DNA of 64,000 nucleotides from Pseudobutyrivibrio sp. OR37. Its GTDB lineage: Bacteria > Bacillota > Clostridia > Lachnospirales > Lachnospiraceae. The position numbers and the translations under genes were made by a program. A model generated the notes under the pieces. It saw nothing but the letters and a program-made list of their open reading frames with translations, did no database searches and was not told the DNA's origin. This document shows, piece by piece, positions 22,508 to 32,133 of this stretch (positions within the stretch are counted from its first letter, which is position 1; the number at the start of each line of letters is the position of its first letter). The stretch covers positions 1-64,000 of the forward strand of contig NZ_FOQF01000012.1 of NCBI RefSeq assembly GCF_900113655.1, written 5' to 3'.

Positions 22508-25500
22508 TTAATTTGCGAAGCTTCTTGCTTTTATATTAAAGCTAAAGGTCTTCTCTCCGCCATATTCATTTTTTCCTCTAATAACAACAGTAGCTTTTCC
22601 AATCAGCTTGTTGTTGCTAATAGATACGATTTCATAATCAGATGGATCAAGAACGATTGTTGTATTCTTTCCACCCACCTTTTTCTTGTATGAAATCTCA
22701 ATGTCGCTTGCCTTAAGTGGCATAACAGCTTTGCTATCGTTATATGCCAGCTTCTTTAAATCCTTCACCTTCACTGAGAATTTGGAAATGTTTGTAGCGT
22801 TATCGATTACTCGATAATAGCCAGTAAGCACTGTTCCATTTTCAGCAGAGGTGTATGAGCTCTTTTCTGAACATCTTACTGTTAAATTTACCTTGATTAC
22901 TGTTCCTGGTGCCACCTTGTCAGTAGCCTGCACTACAGTACCGGCGTATTTCTTTGTGCCATCCTCAAGTACTGTGTCATAAGCGTAAGTATAGCTGTAA
23001 TCGGTCCTCTTAAAGGCCTCTACATCCTTATTCTTGCCTACTGATATAGCCTTAGCACCATCCATAAGCTTTGGAGTAGCCTTCATAAAGTAACCATTCT
23101 TACCTGATGATTTTGCATTGTAAGCAACATCACTTAAGGTGATTGTTACGCCAGCTATATCTGCCTTTTTGATATTGAAAAATGCCGATGCATTAGCACC
23201 AGTGTAGTTGCCCTTGCCCTTTACAGTAACTGTAGGCTTGCCAGATTTAAGAAGGGTATAGTCTGCAACTATCTTGGTGTTGTTCTTGTAAGCTAATGTG
23301 TAATCTACGCCTTCCTTCAAGGTATTTCCATCAAAGGTAACCTGTACCTGTGGCTTTACACCTGCCTTTGTATAAGTAGCTGGTGTCTCCAATACCTTGA
23401 TTTCCAACTTGCCATCCTTATTGTTCTTAAGGTTAAAGGCCTTTACCGTAACAGTCTTTTTGATGGTTCCTGAATAGCCATTTATACCAGTAAATACAAG
23501 ACTGAATTTACCGATGCTGCCGTTGTTATCCATGGCTACTGTATAGTCTTTATTTTCTACGAGAGGAACATTTGCCTGCTTTTCCTTATCGAATTGATAT
23601 AGAGTAACAGTCTTCCAGGTGCTTTCAAGCTTCTTATCCTTTTCTTTGAATAAATCTGCCATTGTAATGGCCTTGCCTGTATATTCCACTGTTGTAGAAA
23701 GTCCTGCGATTTTAACCTTGTTAAGGCTAGTTCCCACTATCTCAAAGGATAAGGTCTTGGTACCTGCGTAGTTCTTTACCTTGTTTGCAATATCCTCTGC
23801 TGTAAGCGCCTTCTGCAAGCCCTCTACAACAAAGCTATGCTTTCCAGCAGATTTGTAATCTGTGGCAGTTAATGGATTCAGCTTATAGTCCTGACCATAT
23901 ACAAGAATCTTATTACCATCCTTGATATATGCCATCGCTTCCTTTCCATTGCTGTTATCAAACAATGTAGCTAAATCCACTGCTTTAGTAGCATCGTAAG
24001 GAAGCTTGATAGCCTTGCCATTTGCATCAACAGCCTTAAGTCTTGAAGCCATCAAGGTTGTAGTCTTGTCAATCGGCTTTGCCTCAACATAGTTGTCACT
24101 TGTCACCTGACCTTCGAAATTGCTTCCATCCTTGGCAACAGCAACTATATAGTATTTTACTGCTGCGTCATTAACGATTTCCTTTGCAGGCAAAGCCACT
24201 TCATTTACAGCTTCAACAGCATTCTTGTAGTACTTAAGCACATAGTCTTTGTTAAGAGCAAGCTTTTTACCATTGAAGCTGTATTGAGGCTTGGTGTTTG
24301 AAATCTTTACGTTTGCTCCCATATTAACAGCTACAGTGTGCTCTGTTGTTACAGCAGCTGCTGCAAGGCTGGCCTTATTGATAGTAAATGTAAATGGAGC
24401 CTTTGCAGTATAGTTTCCCTTACCTGTGATTGTAACAGTAGGAGCCTTCTTTACATTATCCTGATTAGCAGACACTTTATTTCTTGCGTAGCTTACTGTG
24501 TAATCTCTTTTTTCAACCAGCTTTGTTGTGCCTTGGTAAACCTCCACCTTTTCGTTAAAGGTGATGTTATTACCTGTGTAGGTTTCAGCGTAGGTGGTCT
24601 GTCCGCCCTGGGTGTAGTATTTATCTCTGTCACCGATGATAAACCACATGCCCTGAGGAACCTTTGTAGATACATTGCCAAATAATGGCTGTAAATCAGC
24701 AGGAACATCTCCCCAGTCATTGGTATTTACTGTGTATGTGAAGGTAGCTACTGTACTATCCTTACACTCATCCTTAACTGCTATCGCCTTAATAGTAGTT
24801 GTTTTATTAATAACGATTGCATCTGTATAAAGAGTTGAATCCTTAGTAGGAGTGTCACCTAAAACTGTGTAATAAATATCTGCAAGATATGTATCTGTAC
24901 TAAGCTGTACTTTTGTTCCTGCCTTAACAACGCCAGGAGCTATATCTGCCTTTGGCGCTGCCACATTAAGCTCAGGATAGATTGTAACCTCACAGCTGTC
25001 ACTATATTCCGTTCCTTCAAGTGTGGCTGTAATTTTAACAACCTTCTTTTCTGTGATGTTTGTAGCTGGAGTCAGAATAATAGTATCCTCAAGCATAGAT
25101 TTTCTAGCTGTAGTTAATACTGATGTATTATCAATACTCCACTTAACAGCCTTTGCCAAATTAGCCTTTCCAGCAACAATAGGTGTTAATTCGAAGTTAA
25201 CGCCTTCCTTTGCAGAAAGCACCACTTCATTTGCGCTAAGCTTTATAGGTGAAGCTACGTTTACCTCAAGCTCAGCCTTTGCATTACCTACCTTTGCTGT
25301 TATCTTGGCTGTGCCCTCCTGGTTTTGAGCTGTAATCTTGTTTCCAGCCACCTTTACAATATTGTTGTTGCTGCTAGTAAAGGTTACAGCTGATGCTTTT
25401 TCAGCTGGGAAAACCTCTACAGTATCAAGAGTATATTCTTCACCCTTTACCAGATTAAGCTTGCTAACCTTAAATACTATATTTTCTGCAGCCTTAACAA

Positions 25501-28500
25501 CCTTGATAGAAATCTTGTTAGATACCTTGCCATCCACTGTTGCATGAATAGTGGCATCTCCTGGTGTTAAAGCTGTAAGCTTGCCAGTGTTGTCGATGCT
25601 GATTGAATTTTGGCCATCCTCGCCTGCATTTTTGTCTATAACAAAGCGCACGCCCTCATCTGCATCACTCTTTTCAGCTCTGACATTTATATTAATGGAC
25701 TGCCCAACTGCCAATGTATAGCTATCAGCACCTTCGATAATAATATCTGAATCTACATAATCTCTCCATTTAGCGTAGAGAGTGCCAGTTCCATCGGTAG
25801 GATAATAATATTCCTCACCTGCTGCTGTACAGACTGTTGTAGCTTTTGTTGTAAGATTTGAATCTGTATACCAGCCTGTAAATACACTCTTATCTGTTCT
25901 TGATAATCTGCTTTCATAATATGCAAGATTGATACCACTGCCAGCTACTATTTCTGTAGCTGTAATTTTATAGTCTAAATCTGCCTCACCGGCGAAATAT
26001 CCTCCGTTGGCATCAAGGATTACAGAGCTTGCATAATCATACTTTGCATATAAATTCTTTACAGTTTTTGGCACAGTGAGGTAGCACTTGTCATTCTTGT
26101 AATTAACAGCGCCTTCAAAGGCCTGTGTAAGAGCCGCATCTGTGTACCAGCCGGCGAAAGCTTTTGAAATATCCTTGCTGGTTGGAATTGGACAGCTAAC
26201 TATTTCTTTAGCTTCACCTGTTCGCTCTACTGCATAGGTTACTTTATCACCAGCACCAAAGTATCCTGCATTAGCATATAAATACAATGGTGAATTATCG
26301 TTATATTTACTCCACTTTGCATAAATAGAAGTATTAGCTGATATTACCATATCTGGATTTGCAGGCTGTTTTAATGCAGCATCTGCGTACCAGCTTGTTA
26401 CGTGAGAAGCTGTAAATCCATAAGTGTTATGGCCAAACTTGTACTGTGTGTTGATATCAGATAATAATGTCCCCTTAGCTACAACAACCTTGTATGTAGT
26501 ACCATTGTCTGTAAGCTCTGGGGTATATATTCCTGTATGAAAGTTCTCGGTAAATTCAGTTGTTCCACTTACAAAGGTTACTTCCACGGCATCATTCCAT
26601 ACGGCATATAAATCCATATCACCTGTAGGAACAAAACCTGTTTCTGGCATATATGTTGTATTTACTGTGGAACCAGCCACTTCTCTGATTGCATGGTAAT
26701 TCTGGTTAAAGATGTACTGCTTTCCTGTACCATTTTTGTTGGTGCTATAAATCAGTGTATTACCAGCATCATCTAGGTAAAACATTGGTATCTTACCATA
26801 GTCTCTTTTATCCATGGTAGGGACGTTGAAGACACCACTTGCTTTATAATTGCTGTAAGTGAAAGCCTTTCCCTTTGGCACCTTAACAGCGATAGTTTCA
26901 GAAACACCGTCAAGCCTTGCCCCACTCTTGTTTGAATGGAAGGTGATTGTGTAGCAATCTGAGTAATGAGCATAGTAAGTAACAGCTGTTGTAGCTTTTG
27001 TATTACTTATTGATGATACAGGTGTGCTTATGCAGGACTCATCTTCATACCAACTATCGAAGGCTTTGTTATCATCTGTTTCAGGGATTGGTGCTTTATT
27101 ACCGATTTTGCTGCCCTTAGGCAATTTAATCTGAACTGTATTTTTTCCATCTGCAAAATGACCTTCCTTAGCCTCAAAGGTTACTGTTACTGCATCTTCG
27201 TATTTAGCATAGAATGTAACATCTTTTGTAATTGGGAAATTATTTATGTCATCCTTTTCAATGGCATTAGTGCATGCACTGTCTGTATACCATCCTACGA
27301 ATAGCTTATCGTCTGTAGATGTAGGATTTTCAGGTATACTAAATCCCTCTCGCTTTAGTGTGCTTCCTGTTGAAACAGTATATTCAGTCTTAATATTTCC
27401 AGCAGAATCTGCTCCTTCGCCATAATTAAAGGTTACCTTGTGGCCTTGAATCCATTTTGCGTAGAAATCATAATCCTTAGTGTATTTCTTATCTGCAATG
27501 TAGCCATCACGAGTGATAACCGGCTCAGTGCACTCTTCGTCCATATACCAGCCACCAAAGGTGTAGCCCGTTTTACTTACTTTTACATCAGTGATAGTAT
27601 CTCCACTTGATAAGCCCCAGCCATGTTCATCACCATAGGATACCTGTTTGGTAAGAGTTTTTTCATCGTCACTTAATATATAGCCACCATATCGTTTGGT
27701 GTCAGCACTAAACACTCCATCGTTTCCGTGAAATTTTACAATCCTAAATTTATTAGTGCTACTCCAAACTGGATATACATCAACATTCTCCTTAAAATTT
27801 CCCTCTGCGCCAAACACATCGAAATCTGGTTTAGTTGCGTTATTTGTAAGAGCCCAACCTTCAATACCCTTATATAAATCCTGGCAAAAGATTCCATACT
27901 CAAATACATTATAAAGATGGTCGCTATTATCCTTATAGACATCAAATGTTATTGTATCGCGCTTTTCACCAGTATCCTTGTCAATGAAAAAACCACCTTT
28001 AGACGCATTACCAGCATGATATGTAATAACATAGTTTCCATTTCCAGCTGTTGCATCTGTCCACTCTAAATAAACATCCATGTCCTTGCCAGGAGTCATA
28101 TGAATACCATAGTTTGCTGGCTGTCTTTTTTTAATGTTATTATTATCATAAAAATAATAACTGGCAACTACCCTACTGGCATTCTTATTCTTTGCACTAC
28201 CAACTGCTCCACTTATTCCGAGTGGATAAGGTGCTTCTGATGCAATACGAGCATCTGCAAATGATATTTTATATGTATCTACTTCTTCACCATCTTTAAG
28301 GAAATAAGCGTTTTCAGTAGTGTCATTTTCTGGTCTTGCATGAACTGTAATAACAGTTTTGTCCCTATAATATTTTTTATATAAAGTCATAGGTTCAGTT
28401 ACTCTAAGACCGTCAATATCTATTTCCTCTGACATATCTTCTTTTGTGTAAAATATAGTATAACCATCACTAGAATAAGTACCATTCTCATATTTGGAGT

Positions 28501-29398
28501 TCGCATCTGAATAATGAGGATAGCGCTCTTCATAACAATCTACATTACCTACATAATAATACTCCGTCAGTAATTCCCCTTTAGGAACTCTTAATATATA
28601 TTCTTCAACTGGATTATCAAAATCATTCGCAGGTCTATAAAAACCTAAACCTACTGCGGATTCTCCAGTTGGTTCTGACCCAACATTCATACCAAATATT
28701 AGTTTTACTTCATATGTTTCATCAACAGAAAGCCAACGGGCATACAAAGTCTTCTTGTCATACAATCTAACCATTGCATTATCAGAAGAACCTTCATCCT
28801 CATCTATAAGTTCACATTGTAAACAATCATTACTATCTGCCACAGAAGCTCTAAGACTATCGGTACAATTTGAATCAAAGTACCAACCTGCAAAAAAATA
28901 CCCCTCTCTTGTTGGGATATATCCAATCCTAGTCTTCTTCACATTCCACAATTTAACAAAACTACCGTCATAGAACTTTCCACCATTAGCATCTAGATAG
29001 AAGCCAAAATCAGCCATGTCAAGAAGCTTGCTCTCCTGGGCCTCTTCTTCTACAAGCTCTAGATCCTCTACTTCAACTACAGTCTCGTTTTCACTGCTCT
29101 CATCAGATTCAGCAGCATCTGCTTTTTGAACTTCTACTGTCTCTTCTGCTGTATCTTCTGCAGGCGCAGCTTGCTGTTCTATAGTCTTTACATCATCACC
29201 CTGGGTATTTTCTACCCCATCCTCTGATTCAGTAGCAACTACAGCTTCATTATCTACAGTTTCATCAATGTTTTCTGTCATTTCAATTTCAGTGTTGTCA
29301 CCTATTTCAGCAGCATAAGAATTAAAGCTGCCAAACTGAAATGATGTCAAAATCATTGCTGTCGCCAAAACTGTAGCGATACATTTACGGAATATCAT
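22508..29398 (-). CDS. Very large secreted protein with InlB B-repeats, Big_2 and MBG-like domains
   Basis: About 2296 residues from MIFRKCIATVLA; the longer start at 29419 is less likely because AGGAGG lies 7 bp before this ATG. A signal peptide (ATVLATAMILTSFQF, then YAAEIG) is followed by an acidic stretch of about 95 residues. Residues 150-1215 hold at least seven Listeria-Bacteroides repeats, each with a GWYTD..C/L core and ending LYAKW or FYAKY. Residues 1220-1480 contain three Big_2-like Ig domains (ISIDNTGKLTALTPGDATI). A chitobiase-type module (DIYYTVLGDTPTKDSTLY) follows, then about 700 residues of MBG-like repeats with GKGNYTG motifs. No sortase signal or membrane tail is visible, and no catalytic domain is recognised. 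An adhesin or stalk is a plausible role. Confidence 0.85.
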   Translation of the reverse strand: MIFRKCIATVLATAMILTSFQFGSFNSYAAEIGDNTEIEMTENIDETVDNEAVVATESEDGVENTQGDDVKTIEQQAAPAEDTAEETVEVQKADAAESDESSENETVVEVEDLELVEEEAQESKLLDMADFGFYLDANGGKFYDGSFVKLWNVKKTRIGYIPTREGYFFAGWYFDSNCTDSLRASVADSNDCLQCELIDEDEGSSDNAMVRLYDKKTLYARWLSVDETYEVKLIFGMNVGSEPTGESAVGLGFYRPANDFDNPVEEYILRVPKGELLTEYYYVGNVDCYEERYPHYSDANSKYENGTYSSDGYTIFYTKEDMSEEIDIDGLRVTEPMTLYKKYYRDKTVITVHARPENDTTENAYFLKDGEEVDTYKISFADARIASEAPYPLGISGAVGSAKNKNASRVVASYYFYDNNNIKKRQPANYGIHMTPGKDMDVYLEWTDATAGNGNYVITYHAGNASKGGFFIDKDTGEKRDTITFDVYKDNSDHLYNVFEYGIFCQDLYKGIEGWALTNNATKPDFDVFGAEGNFKENVDVYPVWSSTNKFRIVKFHGNDGVFSADTKRYGGYILSDDEKTLTKQVSYGDEHGWGLSSGDTITDVKVSKTGYTFGGWYMDEECTEPVITRDGYIADKKYTKDYDFYAKWIQGHKVTFNYGEGADSAGNIKTEYTVSTGSTLKREGFSIPENPTSTDDKLFVGWYTDSACTNAIEKDDINNFPITKDVTFYAKYEDAVTVTFEAKEGHFADGKNTVQIKLPKGSKIGNKAPIPETDDNKAFDSWYEDESCISTPVSSISNTKATTAVTYYAHYSDCYTITFHSNKSGARLDGVSETIAVKVPKGKAFTYSNYKASGVFNVPTMDKRDYGKIPMFYLDDAGNTLIYSTNKNGTGKQYIFNQNYHAIREVAGSTVNTTYMPETGFVPTGDMDLYAVWNDAVEVTFVSGTTEFTENFHTGIYTPELTDNGTTYKVVVAKGTLLSDINTQYKFGHNTYGFTASHVTSWYADAALKQPANPDMVISANTSIYAKWSKYNDNSPLYLYANAGYFGAGDKVTYAVERTGEAKEIVSCPIPTSKDISKAFAGWYTDAALTQAFEGAVNYKNDKCYLTVPKTVKNLYAKYDYASSVILDANGGYFAGEADLDYKITATEIVAGSGINLAYYESRLSRTDKSVFTGWYTDSNLTTKATTVCTAAGEEYYYPTDGTGTLYAKWRDYVDSDIIIEGADSYTLAVGQSININVRAEKSDADEGVRFVIDKNAGEDGQNSISIDNTGKLTALTPGDATIHATVDGKVSNKISIKVVKAAENIVFKVSKLNLVKGEEYTLDTVEVFPAEKASAVTFTSSNNNIVKVAGNKITAQNQEGTAKITAKVGNAKAELEVNVASPIKLSANEVVLSAKEGVNFELTPIVAGKANLAKAVKWSIDNTSVLTTARKSMLEDTIILTPATNITEKKVVKITATLEGTEYSDSCEVTIYPELNVAAPKADIAPGVVKAGTKVQLSTDTYLADIYYTVLGDTPTKDSTLYTDAIVINKTTTIKAIAVKDECKDSTVATFTYTVNTNDWGDVPADLQPLFGNVSTKVPQGMWFIIGDRDKYYTQGGQTTYAETYTGNNITFNEKVEVYQGTTKLVEKRDYTVSYARNKVSANQDNVKKAPTVTITGKGNYTAKAPFTFTINKASLAAAAVTTEHTVAVNMGANVKISNTKPQYSFNGKKLALNKDYVLKYYKNAVEAVNEVALPAKEIVNDAAVKYYIVAVAKDGSNFEGQVTSDNYVEAKPIDKTTTLMASRLKAVDANGKAIKLPYDATKAVDLATLFDNSNGKEAMAYIKDGNKILVYGQDYKLNPLTATDYKSAGKHSFVVEGLQKALTAEDIANKVKNYAGTKTLSFEIVGTSLNKVKIAGLSTTVEYTGKAITMADLFKEKDKKLESTWKTVTLYQFDKEKQANVPLVENKDYTVAMDNNGSIGKFSLVFTGINGYSGTIKKTVTVKAFNLKNNKDGKLEIKVLETPATYTKAGVKPQVQVTFDGNTLKEGVDYTLAYKNNTKIVADYTLLKSGKPTVTVKGKGNYTGANASAFFNIKKADIAGVTITLSDVAYNAKSSGKNGYFMKATPKLMDGAKAISVGKNKDVEAFKRTDYSYTYAYDTVLEDGTKKYAGTVVQATDKVAPGTVIKVNLTVRCSEKSSYTSAENGTVLTGYYRVIDNATNISKFSVKVKDLKKLAYNDSKAVMPLKASDIEISYKKKVGGKNTTIVLDPSDYEIVSISNNKLIGKATVVIRGKNEYGGEKTFSFNIKARSFAN

Positions 29399-29523
29399 TT
29401 CCCATCCTCCTGTGCACAATTGTTACATAATAGCATTATTTTACATCTTATACTGATAATATCACGCTATTAGGTAATTTTTGTGAACTCTAAGACTTGT
29501 GAGATATTTTTGGTAAAAGCCAC

Positions 29524-30473: not shown

Positions 30474-31862
30474 TTAAATATGACCTACTAACAATAATCC
30501 TGCCAATCCATAGTATGTAACAACTGCCACTAAATCGTTAACAGTAGTGATAAGTGGACCAGATGCAACTGCAGGATCTACTTTAATCTTGTGGAAGAAT
30601 ATTGGAATAATTGTTCCAATAAAGCTTGAAACTATCATAGCAATAAATAGTGAAAAACCTACGATAGCTGATACCTTAAAGGCAATATACCATACATAGG
30701 CCTTAAACACATGCAGGTAAAGTGCTACGAAAAATAGTGCAAGCACTCCTAATATAAGTCCATTTGTTCCACCAACGCGCATTTCCTTGAGAACGAATTT
30801 GGCCTTTTCAAGACCTGATATTTCCTCGTCCATAAGCACTCGAATGGTGACAGCCAGTGACTGTGTTCCAACATTACCAGCCATATCAAGGATAAGTGAC
30901 TGGAATACAACTACGATTGCTACTGAAGCAACTACCTTATCAAATATGCCTATTACCGAGCTTGTCACAAGGCCAAGGCCTAGTAACAATAACAGCCAAG
31001 GAATACGCTTTTTGATACTCTCTGGTAAGCTTTCGTTCAAATCCTCTTCAGCAGTCAAACCAGCCAACCTAGCGTAGTCTTCACCCATCTCATCATCTAC
31101 GGCCTCGATGATATCCTGTGATGTGATAGCACCGATAATCTCGTCATTAGGATTAAGTACTGGAATAGAATCCTCAGCGTAATCCTTTAAATCTTCGATA
31201 GTTTCAGAGATTAATGCATCAGCCTTAACACTTGGGTAGCTGTGACTGATAATATCATCAAGTGGTGTGTAATCACGGGCAAGAATCAAATCTCTAAGCT
31301 CGATAGCACCGTAATATTTATCCTCTGTATCTACTACATAGATAGTGTTGATATTATCGTTATCCTTTGATTGAGAAATCAAAGAACGCATTGCCTGCTT
31401 AACTGAAAAATTCTGCTTGATGACAATGAAATTTGTAGTCATCATACTACCAACTTCATCTTCATCATAGGAATTGATAAGTCGTACATCTGCAGATGCT
31501 TCCTTATCCATCAAAGAAATCAGCTGCTCTCTTTGAGCCTCATCCTCGATATCCTCCAAAGCATCTACCGCATCATCGGCATCCATGTTCTCTAAGACAT
31601 CAGCCGCCTGCTCTGGTGTAATCTCTGCTAAATATTCACCTACATCCTCAATATATGGGAAAATTTCTGATAGACGTTCGGCACCTAGAACTCCGAACAA
31701 TCTTCTACGGTCCTCTGTATCTAAGGCCTCGTATGCCTCGGCAATATCATTCTCATGATAATCGTCAAGAGCCTCCATTAAAGCCTCGGCACCTAGATTA
31801 GAGCGTAGCAAATCGATAATCTCTTGGATTTTGTTATCCTCTAAAATCTCTTTTGTTTCCAT
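30474..31862 (-). CDS. mgtE: Magnesium transporter MgtE
   Basis: A 462-residue Mg2+ channel. The cytoplasmic N domain (residues 1-130, with repeats such as IEDVGEYLAEITPEQAADVLENMD) and two CBS domains (IYVVDTEDKYYGAIELRDL and IPVLNPNDEIIGAITSQDI) form the Mg2+ sensor that closes the pore. The C-terminal membrane domain has five helices and the signature SLILDMAGNVGTQSLAVTIR-like pore region and the conserved Asp in MIVSSFIGTIIPI to PAVASGPLITT. GGAG lies 9 bp before the ATG. It is preceded by an intrinsic terminator and a leader ORF that look like an attenuator, so its synthesis is probably controlled before the coding region is reached. Confidence 0.95.
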   Translation of the reverse strand: METKEILEDNKIQEIIDLLRSNLGAEALMEALDDYHENDIAEAYEALDTEDRRRLFGVLGAERLSEIFPYIEDVGEYLAEITPEQAADVLENMDADDAVDALEDIEDEAQREQLISLMDKEASADVRLINSYDEDEVGSMMTTNFIVIKQNFSVKQAMRSLISQSKDNDNINTIYVVDTEDKYYGAIELRDLILARDYTPLDDIISHSYPSVKADALISETIEDLKDYAEDSIPVLNPNDEIIGAITSQDIIEAVDDEMGEDYARLAGLTAEEDLNESLPESIKKRIPWLLLLLGLGLVTSSVIGIFDKVVASVAIVVVFQSLILDMAGNVGTQSLAVTIRVLMDEEISGLEKAKFVLKEMRVGGTNGLILGVLALFFVALYLHVFKAYVWYIAFKVSAIVGFSLFIAMIVSSFIGTIIPIFFHKIKVDPAVASGPLITTVNDLVAVVTYYGLAGLLLVGHI

Positions 31863-31878
31863 GTTCTTTCTCCGCTAT

Positions 31879-31912
31879 AAAAAAAGAATGTCATGTTTAG
31901 ACGATGACATTC
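31879..31912 (-). terminator. Intrinsic terminator in the mgtE leader
   Basis: RNA reading: GAAUGUCAU, 9-nt loop, AUGACAUUC, then seven U. It ends 17 bp before the mgtE start codon, too close for a promoter between it and mgtE, so it must act by regulated readthrough. Its 5' arm plus loop (31900-31912) is complementary to 31970-31981 inside the leader ORF. Confidence 0.85.
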
Positions 31913-31936
31913 CTTGCACATGAAAACTAAGCTCTT

Positions 31937-32017
31937 TTATCTAAAAGAACAGCTACTCATCTGTATATCGAATGTCTCGTCGCAGCATAATCGCCCATGA
32001 CTGTCTGATTTGTCCAT
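31937..32017 (-). CDS. 26-residue leader peptide of mgtE
   Basis: ATG to TAA of 27 codons, beginning MDKSDSHGRLCC and ending MSSCSFR. GAAAGGAG lies 7 bp before the ATG, a stronger ribosome binding site than most genes in the window have. The ORF has acidic residues at positions 2, 5, 13, 14 and 17 and adjacent Cys codons 11-12. Codons 13-16 (31970-31981) can pair with the 5' arm of the terminator in front of mgtE, and codons 21-24 (31946-31955) are a perfect complement of the sequence across its own ribosome binding site and start (32017-32026). Arrangement suggests regulation through translation of this peptide; the peptide itself is probably not functional as a protein. Confidence 0.75.
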   Translation of the reverse strand: MDKSDSHGRLCCDETFDIQMSSCSFR

Positions 32018-32026
32018 AGCTGTTCT
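31946..32026 (-). promoter_or_regulatory. Attenuator pairing segments in the mgtE leader
   Basis: Segment A AGAACAGCUA (32026-32017, overlapping the leader ORF ribosome binding site and start) and segment B UAGCUGUUCU (31955-31946) are perfect complements. Segment C GACGAGACAUUC (31981-31970) pairs with GAAUGUCAUCGUC (31912-31900), the 5' half of the terminator, as 12 bp with one bulge; this is longer than the 9-bp terminator stem. These are the elements of a terminator/antiterminator switch. Confidence 0.75.
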
Positions 32027-32063
32027 CCTTTCTTTTCTCTTAAATTAGAAATTAATTGTTTGA

Positions 32064-32069: not shown

Positions 32070-32133
32070 CACAAAAAACATAACACAAAAATTAACTCTT
32101 TGTAAACCCCATTTAGCAAATAAAATGCTGTAT

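Follow-up and report, generated by a model that had tools for sequence, protein, structure and literature searches.

A putative ribosome-sensing leader upstream of the magnesium transporter gene mgtE in gut and rumen clostridia

Introduction

Short leader ORFs are found before magnesium transporter genes in enterobacteria. In Salmonella, the uORF mgtQ precedes mgtB and has acidic residues at positions 2 and 5, Asp2 and Glu5, as well as Pro4 (PMC8092293). Alternative stem-loops involve this ORF, and early ribosome trouble switches the transporter on. Substitution of the acidic residues with Ala raised mgtQ translation and lowered mgtB expression, while loss of one L31 protein had the opposite effect (PMC8092293). 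The mgtQ ORF lies between two genes of an enterobacterial operon and acts on mgtB translation. MgtL, the leader of mgtA in E. coli and Salmonella, also has early acidic residues, Glu2 and Asp4 of EPDP, and low Mg2+ favors ribosome loss on it (PMC11282234; Gall 2016 and Zhao 2011 as cited there). MgtL controls mgtA at the level of transcription through a Rho-dependent terminator. It is reported that di-acidic residues alone are not sufficient (PMC11282234). In bacteria, peptide leaders that sense Mg2+ through the ribosome are known only from enterobacteria.

In Firmicutes, mgtE-type genes are controlled by the M-box (ykoK) Mg2+ riboswitch, RF00380, and a uORF studied in M. tuberculosis also concerns an M-box (PMC12810186). 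Another structured RNA before mgtE, the mgtE motif SRC-65-1, has been reported only in Thioalkalivibrio (PMC11109978). It is a riboswitch candidate that includes the mgtE Shine-Dalgarno sequence, and no leader peptide was seen described for it; its consensus was not compared with the leaders described here. In the classical attenuators, trp and his, the position of a ribosome on a leader ORF chooses between an antiterminator and an intrinsic terminator. The leader described here differs from these in having no run of codons for one amino acid, in a computed boundary at a conserved CGA after an acidic N-terminus, and in preceding a cation transporter gene.

The sequence examined here, referred to as the window, is a stretch of 64,000 nucleotides from Pseudobutyrivibrio sp. 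OR37 (NZ_FOQF01000012.1, positions 1 to 64,000). A sequence-only reading of the window had proposed a leader-peptide attenuator without an M-box in front of mgtE. In many gut and rumen clostridia, mgtE is preceded by a tiny conserved ORF of this kind, and RNA folding predicts that how far a ribosome gets along it decides whether the importer is switched on, possibly as a sensor of low magnesium. Literature searches on leader peptides, upstream ORFs, ribosome destabilization and attenuation for mgtE, on MgtL and acidic leaders, and on destabilization in B. subtilis listed no description of this leader among open-licence papers. It seems to work like MgtL and mgtQ, although homology to them was not tested. 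It differs from them in preceding a different transporter gene, mgtE, and no conserved CGA codon was seen mentioned for mgtQ. It also has an intrinsic terminator where MgtL has a Rho-dependent one; Rho dependence was not examined here.

Features of the leader

On the minus strand, a gene for a YitT-type membrane protein is followed by the leader and then by mgtE, which has Pfam MgtE_N, CBS, and MgtE domains. The nearest named mgtE relatives are Pseudobutyrivibrio. The leader contains a 26-codon ORF (MDKSDSHGRLCC...) with a strong Shine-Dalgarno sequence, a start-site hairpin (P1), an antiterminator (AT), and an intrinsic terminator (Table 1). The arrangement that had been read from the sequence was confirmed, and it also occurs outside the window. 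An additional pairing, helix X, had not been noted in the sequence-only reading. A simple terminator scan did not list the terminator, as its loop of 9 nt exceeds the limit of 8 in that scan. The T-run ends 16 nt before the mgtE ATG.

Table 1. Features of the mgtE leader region in the window.
Feature	Position	Strand	Sequence or property
Possible promoter	32077..32106	-	TTTACA-18-TATGTT with TG before the second hexamer; consensus scan only, number of such sites in the region not above chance
Shine-Dalgarno of leader ORF	32025..32029	-	AGGAG; invariant in the 26-sequence alignment of the genus
P1 5' arm	32017..32026	-	AGAACAGCTA; overlaps ribosome binding site and start codon; perfect 10-bp inverted repeat with the P1 3' arm
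Leader ORF	31937..32017	-	26 codons, MDKSDSHGRLCCDETFDIQMSSCSFR*
Codons 2-5	32003..32014	-	Asp-Lys-Ser-Asp; acidic residues at positions 2 and 5
Helix X 5' arm	31996..32001	-	GTCATG (codons 6-8)
Codon 9	31991..31993	-	CGA (Arg); conserved codon at the computed switch boundary
Antiterminator 5' arm	31970..31981	-	GACGAGACATTC (codons 13-16); 12 pairs and one bulged A with the 3' arm
P1 3' arm	31946..31955	-	TAGCTGTTCT (codons 21-24)
Antiterminator 3' arm	31900..31912	-	GAATGTCATCGTC; overlaps the terminator 5' arm, shared bases 31912-31904
Intrinsic terminator hairpin	31886..31912	-	9-bp stem 31912-31904/31894-31886, 9-nt loop
Helix X 3' arm	31890..31895	-	CATGAC, in the terminator 3' arm
T-run of terminator	31879..31885	-	T7
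Shine-Dalgarno of mgtE	31870..31873	-	GGAG
mgtE	30474..31862	-	462 aa; ATG at 31862

The sequence-only reading had named three findings that would count against it, and each was looked for. The first was a significant M-box match. No Rfam family matched the window at gathering scores, and at E<=10 only two implausible eukaryotic families matched the leader. None matched the leaders of ten relatives. With fast filters, the M-box was found in 0 of 29 genomes of the genus and in 4 of 61 genomes searched in all. The second was a promoter between the terminator and mgtE, for which 16 nt leave no room. The third was a lack of conservation or covariation of the ORF and helices in relatives. This was not the case, as the ORF is conserved and the helices are conserved and partly covary.

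Conservation of the leader ORF

A search with the 26-residue peptide found a leader in 28 of 29 genomes of the genus, each time just before mgtE. The remaining genome (G015, 83% complete) has only a chance match. The first 9-10 residues are nearly fixed while the rest varies. Outside the genus, the same kind of ORF precedes mgtE, with peptides beginning MDSCDSHGRS, MDSCDSNGRS, MDNCDSTGRS, MDSCDGSYRR, MDSPDGDYRS, MDSCDGNGQH, and MDPDSNYRSS. The consensus of this wider family is MDSCDSxGRS. By one peptide pattern, 62 of 80 close mgtE homologues carry the leader, and 24 of these are the genus-type loci (numbered L002-L025; leader and mgtE loci are given L numbers and genomes G numbers). The controls gave 0 of 79 on the opposite strand, 0 of 80 downstream of mgtE, and 7 of 1580 shuffles. 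This pattern was written after looking at the first loci. It was applied unchanged to a family-wide sample, in which 52 of 170 genomes have an mgtE of this kind at E<=1e-60. Of 55 matches, 51 upstream regions were used; those left out were the window's own, G021 of the genus, G297 at a contig end, and a tandem copy in G362. The leader was found in 17 of 51, with 0 of 51 on the opposite strand. Seven of the 51 are loci already among the earlier mgtE matches (L120, L121, L123, L127, L129, L133, and L135), and L126 is close to L054. Without these eight regions, the leader was found in 12 of 43.

The other 34 of the 51 mgtE genes lack the leader by this pattern, although one, L121, has a variant. 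This locus (L031/L121) starts MDSCGSDGR, which the pattern misses. Its start was corrected in the shuffle tests, the folding simulations, the pairing analysis, and the final counts. It was left out of the codon counts and was uncorrected in the strand and downstream controls (a count of 89 there, 88 after correction). None of the 34 regions has an M-box either, so mutual exclusion of leader and M-box is not supported. One of the mgtE genes without the leader, L160, has a Clostridiales-1 RNA (RF01699) upstream at 376-540.

A DNA pattern for codons 1-9, derived from known leaders but not from mgtE, was also used. It gave 10 hits in 397 genomes of the family and none for the reversed pattern. All 10 hits lie 174-355 nt before mgtE; four of them (L173, L174, L175, and L177) had been met in the family-wide sample. 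This pattern finds only the commonest form. A looser pattern at the order level gave hits in 4 of 246 genomes, of which one (G146) precedes mgtE and three (L116, L117, and L119) do not. The reversed control gave 2, so that pattern is at chance level there. A class-level scan with CGA gave 1 of 391, the same G146 locus, in a sample that holds few Lachnospiraceae. Forms in other clostridia and in Floccifex came only through mgtE. A search of viral contigs gave nothing. For several loci outside the genus, the mgtE position is where the tblastn match begins and distances are approximate. Small ORFs and short inverted repeats are common by chance, but a chance arrangement or a decayed gene is already contradicted by the conservation in the genus, the second set, the pattern scan, the covariation, and the shuffles.

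Codons of the leader

The 91 family records hold 86 distinct leaders, as five pairs are identical from -20 to the stop. Of the 91, 88 have D/E at position 2 and at 4 or 5, although the search pattern favored this. In 86 records with the regular layout, 30 of them from the genus, Asp2 and Asp5 use both codons (GAT/GAC 45/41 and 36/50) and Cys4 uses both (TGT/TGC 35/11), as expected of a translated ORF. Start codons vary between ATG, GTG, and TTG (75/8/3). Together with the strong Shine-Dalgarno sequence and the conservation of the ORF, these observations would fit translation of the leader, but in the absence of expression data they do not settle whether it is translated.

By contrast, Arg9 is CGA in 74 of 74 records (45 of 45 outside the genus). 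Ser is AGT in 41 of 44 at position 3, 62 of 64 at position 6, and 22 of 23 at position 10, whereas Ser at position 4 uses mainly TCN codons. Gly8 is GGG in 46 of 59. CGA makes up 5.7% of Arg codons in the window's long ORFs and 8.1% in mgtE genes outside the genus, and AGT makes up 11-14% of Ser codons. In the remaining 12 of 86 records, codon 9 is not Arg (CAG 4, CAA 3, CCG 2, CAT 2, AAA 1). Codons 9 and 10 are not especially paired in the folded leaders (mean 0.57 and 0.38 over 76 leaders), so base pairing as the reason for CGA and AGT is not supported. Among the 57 tRNA matches of the organism's own genome, ARAGORN names Arg anticodons ACG, CCG, CCT, and TCT but not TCG; one weak match got no ARAGORN call. 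CGA is then presumably read by ACG as inosine.

The strong nucleotide-level conservation at certain Ser and Arg codons could also indicate an RNA-only sensor, in which the conserved GAYAGTTGYGAYAGT...GGGCGAAGT is a ligand-binding RNA and the ORF is incidental. This appears unlikely given the mixed third positions, the varying start codons, and the lack of an Rfam match. A conserved fold of the motif itself was not searched for beyond mean pairing. Ordinary amino-acid attenuation, with the leader sensing a charged tRNA for Arg, Cys, Ser, or Asp, is very unlikely. Codons for these amino acids are conserved, with Cys often among them, but there is no run of codons for one amino acid. Position 4 is Cys in only 46 of 86 records, Arg9 is replaced in 12, and the gene behind the leader in the pattern scan is a Mg2+ transporter gene each time.

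Pairing of the leader RNA

The leader of the window folds at z=-2.68. In this leader (L082), P1 and AT each reach p=0.02 against 100 dinucleotide shuffles, and over the 30 genus records p<=0.05 was reached in 30 for P1 and 26 for AT. Over the 91 records, p<=0.05 was reached in 61 of 91 for P1 and 53 of 90 for AT, against 7 of 90 for codons 1-8 used as a control. Without the genus and the rumen MDSCDGSYRR clade, the figures are 20 of 45, 19 of 44, and 6 of 44. Outside the genus the arms have unrelated sequences and still match, which is stronger evidence than the changes within the genus. The antiterminator and terminator of the window share bases and exclude each other.

Within the genus, P1 pair -6 is A-T in 13 and G-C in 17 of 30 records with no mismatch. 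Other P1 pairs show single mismatches, and the last pair fails in 7 of 30. The P1 3' arm has nearly the same sequence in two reading frames (18 against 12 records), giving unrelated peptides (SSCSF, VAVLL, and AALF). Thus, further on in the ORF the constraint is on RNA. In helix X, the variable pair, between the third base of codon 7 and the terminator 3' arm, is T-A in 11, T-G in 1, C-G in 14, and C.T in 2 of 28 scored of 30. These changes largely follow two subgroups, so they are few events, although L025 combines the P1 type of one with the X type of the other. The genus alignment holds 26 of 30 records (L011, L020, and L024 were left out for insertions and L088 as a near-duplicate) and does not align helix X between subgroups, so pairs were counted by script; no covariance model or structure prediction was made. 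A hairpin of the P1 3' arm with downstream sequence was found in 13 of 30 genus records and 3 of 31 others.

Predicted direction of control

The transcript up to the T-run was folded codon by codon with 29 nt around the P-site held single-stranded. The assumed reach of about 14 nt agrees with the 12-15 nt quoted previously (PMC3641672). For the window, the terminator probability is 0.00-0.02 with the P-site at codons 1-8, 0.36 or 0.45 in two runs at codon 9, and 0.99 at codons 10-20. It is then 0.54, 0.20, and 0.0 at codons 22, 24, and 26. The direction of control had been left undecided in the sequence-only reading; folding predicts antitermination with the ribosome on codons 1-8 and termination at 10-20 for this leader.

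The simulation used 86 loci, with five near-duplicates left out. Of these, 57 have a T-run by the script's definition and 34 have a terminator with probability 0.7 or more, so 52 of 86 show no T-run or no clear terminator. In 17 of the 34 (11 of 13 in the genus and 6 of 21 others), the probability rises by at least 0.5 between early and middle codons, against 1 of 136 controls with the AT stretch shuffled. The other 17 do not reach this step, and nine of them show almost no change (L033, L044, L051, L062, L063, L125, L148, L171, and L172). This even split, and the reliance on equilibrium folding, leave undecided whether ribosome position chooses between the two structures. In the 17 that switch, the largest step lies at codons 7-8 (3), 8-9 (10), or 9-10 (4), at or within two codons of the conserved Arg.

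The held-ribosome and no-ribosome states differ between loci. With no ribosome, most genus leaders are antiterminated (0.0 in the window), but the terminator is favored in L055 (0.96), L176 (0.99), and L076 (0.87) and partly in L030 (0.62), L014 (0.58), and L061 (0.54). In these loci, drop-off alone would not switch mgtE on. A ribosome on codons 2-7 gives the on state more generally than ribosome loss does. With the P-site at codon 8, the terminator is already favored in L020 (0.70), L076 (0.98), and L176 (0.81); in L076 the Arg is codon 8. The short-form leaders L012 and L016 show no clear switch. Co-transcriptional folding with a moving ribosome and RNA polymerase was not run, and whether loci without an equilibrium switch have a kinetic one was not examined.

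It is also possible that the polarity is the opposite, with complete and frequent translation of the ORF promoting mgtE expression and failure of translation repressing it. A ribosome at the last codons or the stop leaves the antiterminator arm free, and antitermination is then predicted in the window and most genus loci, while L055, L076, and L176 favor the terminator without a ribosome. However, ribosomes at codons 10-20 favor the terminator and the window leader is also predicted on without a ribosome, so in this leader translation could only lower readthrough. This polarity is considered unlikely. Masking of the mgtE ribosome binding site, as in a translational platform, was seen in 1 of 21 loci tried (L079). 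In at least L039, L042, L046, L078, and L152, the mgtE position used is not the true start codon, so those say little.

Possible mechanism

The best explanation, held with moderate confidence, is a ribosome-controlled transcription attenuator of mgtE. In this view, while the foremost ribosome is on codons 1-8, codons 13-16 and codons 6-8 can pair with the two arms of the terminator, and RNA polymerase reads through into mgtE. When the ribosome has passed codon 9 and covers codons 10-20, the terminator would form and mgtE would be off. P1 pairs the leader's own ribosome binding site with late codons, and it may stop reloading after a ribosome is lost. The acidic residues at 2 and 5 (MDKSD, MDSCD, and MDSPD) would make the ribosome unstable or slow when Mg2+ is scarce, as reported for mgtQ (PMC8092293) and MgtL (PMC11282234), and the CGA codon would lengthen the time at risk. 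Low Mg2+ would thus raise mgtE transcription. The MDSPD leaders L028 and L036 also share Pro4 with mgtQ, and L076 begins MDPD. The present analysis establishes the conservation, the association with mgtE, the pairing potential, and the position of the switch by equilibrium folding, whereas the Mg2+ step is inferred from precedent; translation, termination, Mg2+ response, and Mg2+-dependent ribosome loss were not measured. Two Asp spaced by two residues is a modest acidic motif. In addition, destabilization does not predict the strict CGA and AGT codons.

The earlier interpretation is partly supported. A translation-sensing attenuator of mgtE without an M-box is supported, but the Cys-Cys-Asp-Glu codons, which had been suggested as a possible pause site, are not supported as the sensor. 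They vary or are absent in relatives (L012-type leaders read MDKSDSHGRLCN...), and Asp13 and Glu14 lie in the antiterminator arm. What is conserved is codons 1-9. The suggested Mg2+-dependent instability on acidic residues was not tested.

The strict codon choice suggests, more tentatively, a codon-reading sensor. The ribosome would be held, not lost, at codon 9 because CGA has to be read by tRNA-Arg with an ACG (inosine) anticodon through a weak I-A wobble that gets slower when Mg2+ is low, or when that tRNA is short. The held ribosome would leave the antiterminator stretch free. The CGA and AGT codons, the lack of unusual pairing at codons 9-10, the tRNA set of the genome, and the folding switch near this codon agree with this possibility. 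However, 12 of 86 records have no Arg at codon 9, the terminator is already favored in L020 and L176 with CGA in the A site, and Asp2 and Asp5 are not explained by it alone. No data on Mg2+ and CGA reading were obtained, and CGA may only lengthen the dwell time. A speculative combination of both, which would be new, is also possible though doubtful. The Asp2/Asp5 nascent peptide would weaken the ribosome and the inosine wobble reading of the nearly obligatory CGA codon 9 would be the Mg2+-sensitive step. Together they would place the ribosome a few bases before an antiterminator whose sequence is free to diverge between species. Codon-anticodon pairing itself would then be the metal sensor.

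A separate family of such leaders in clostridia, on a different transporter family and with an intrinsic terminator, would show that translation itself is used as a magnesium gauge in distant bacteria. It would also suggest how part of the Lachnospiraceae mgtE genes are regulated without an M-box. The fixed CGA codon at the computed switch point lends itself to a specific and cheap test of whether codon reading, peptide chemistry, or both form the sensor.

Variation near the terminator and other features

In L009-L022 (genus subgroup B, not L014), mgtE has no recognizable Shine-Dalgarno sequence in the last 25 nt before it (for example TAGTTCATGTGAAACTATG). The start codon lies in a small ATAGTT...AACTAT repeat, unlike the GCGGAG of the window's subgroup. 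The short-form leaders L012, L015, L016, L021, and L022 lack the GACGAGGCAT antiterminator stretch but keep P1 and the GTCAC/GTGAC pairing directly before the T-run, so the long-range pairing may itself act as the terminator. L011, L020, and L024 have insertions of several tens of nt between the ORF and the T-run that appear to contain their own hairpins near the terminator. In L033, L051, L125, L172, L177, L180, and several subgroup B loci, the T-run is followed by ATGCC(C/T). In some of these it is complementary to a stretch just upstream (for example GCATAAA...TTTATGC in L033), so the T-run can sit inside a second hairpin. Elsewhere in the window, a 2303-aa ORF (22508-29419, minus strand) has many repeated stretches containing GWY motifs, judged by eye, and is probably a large secreted or surface repeat protein.
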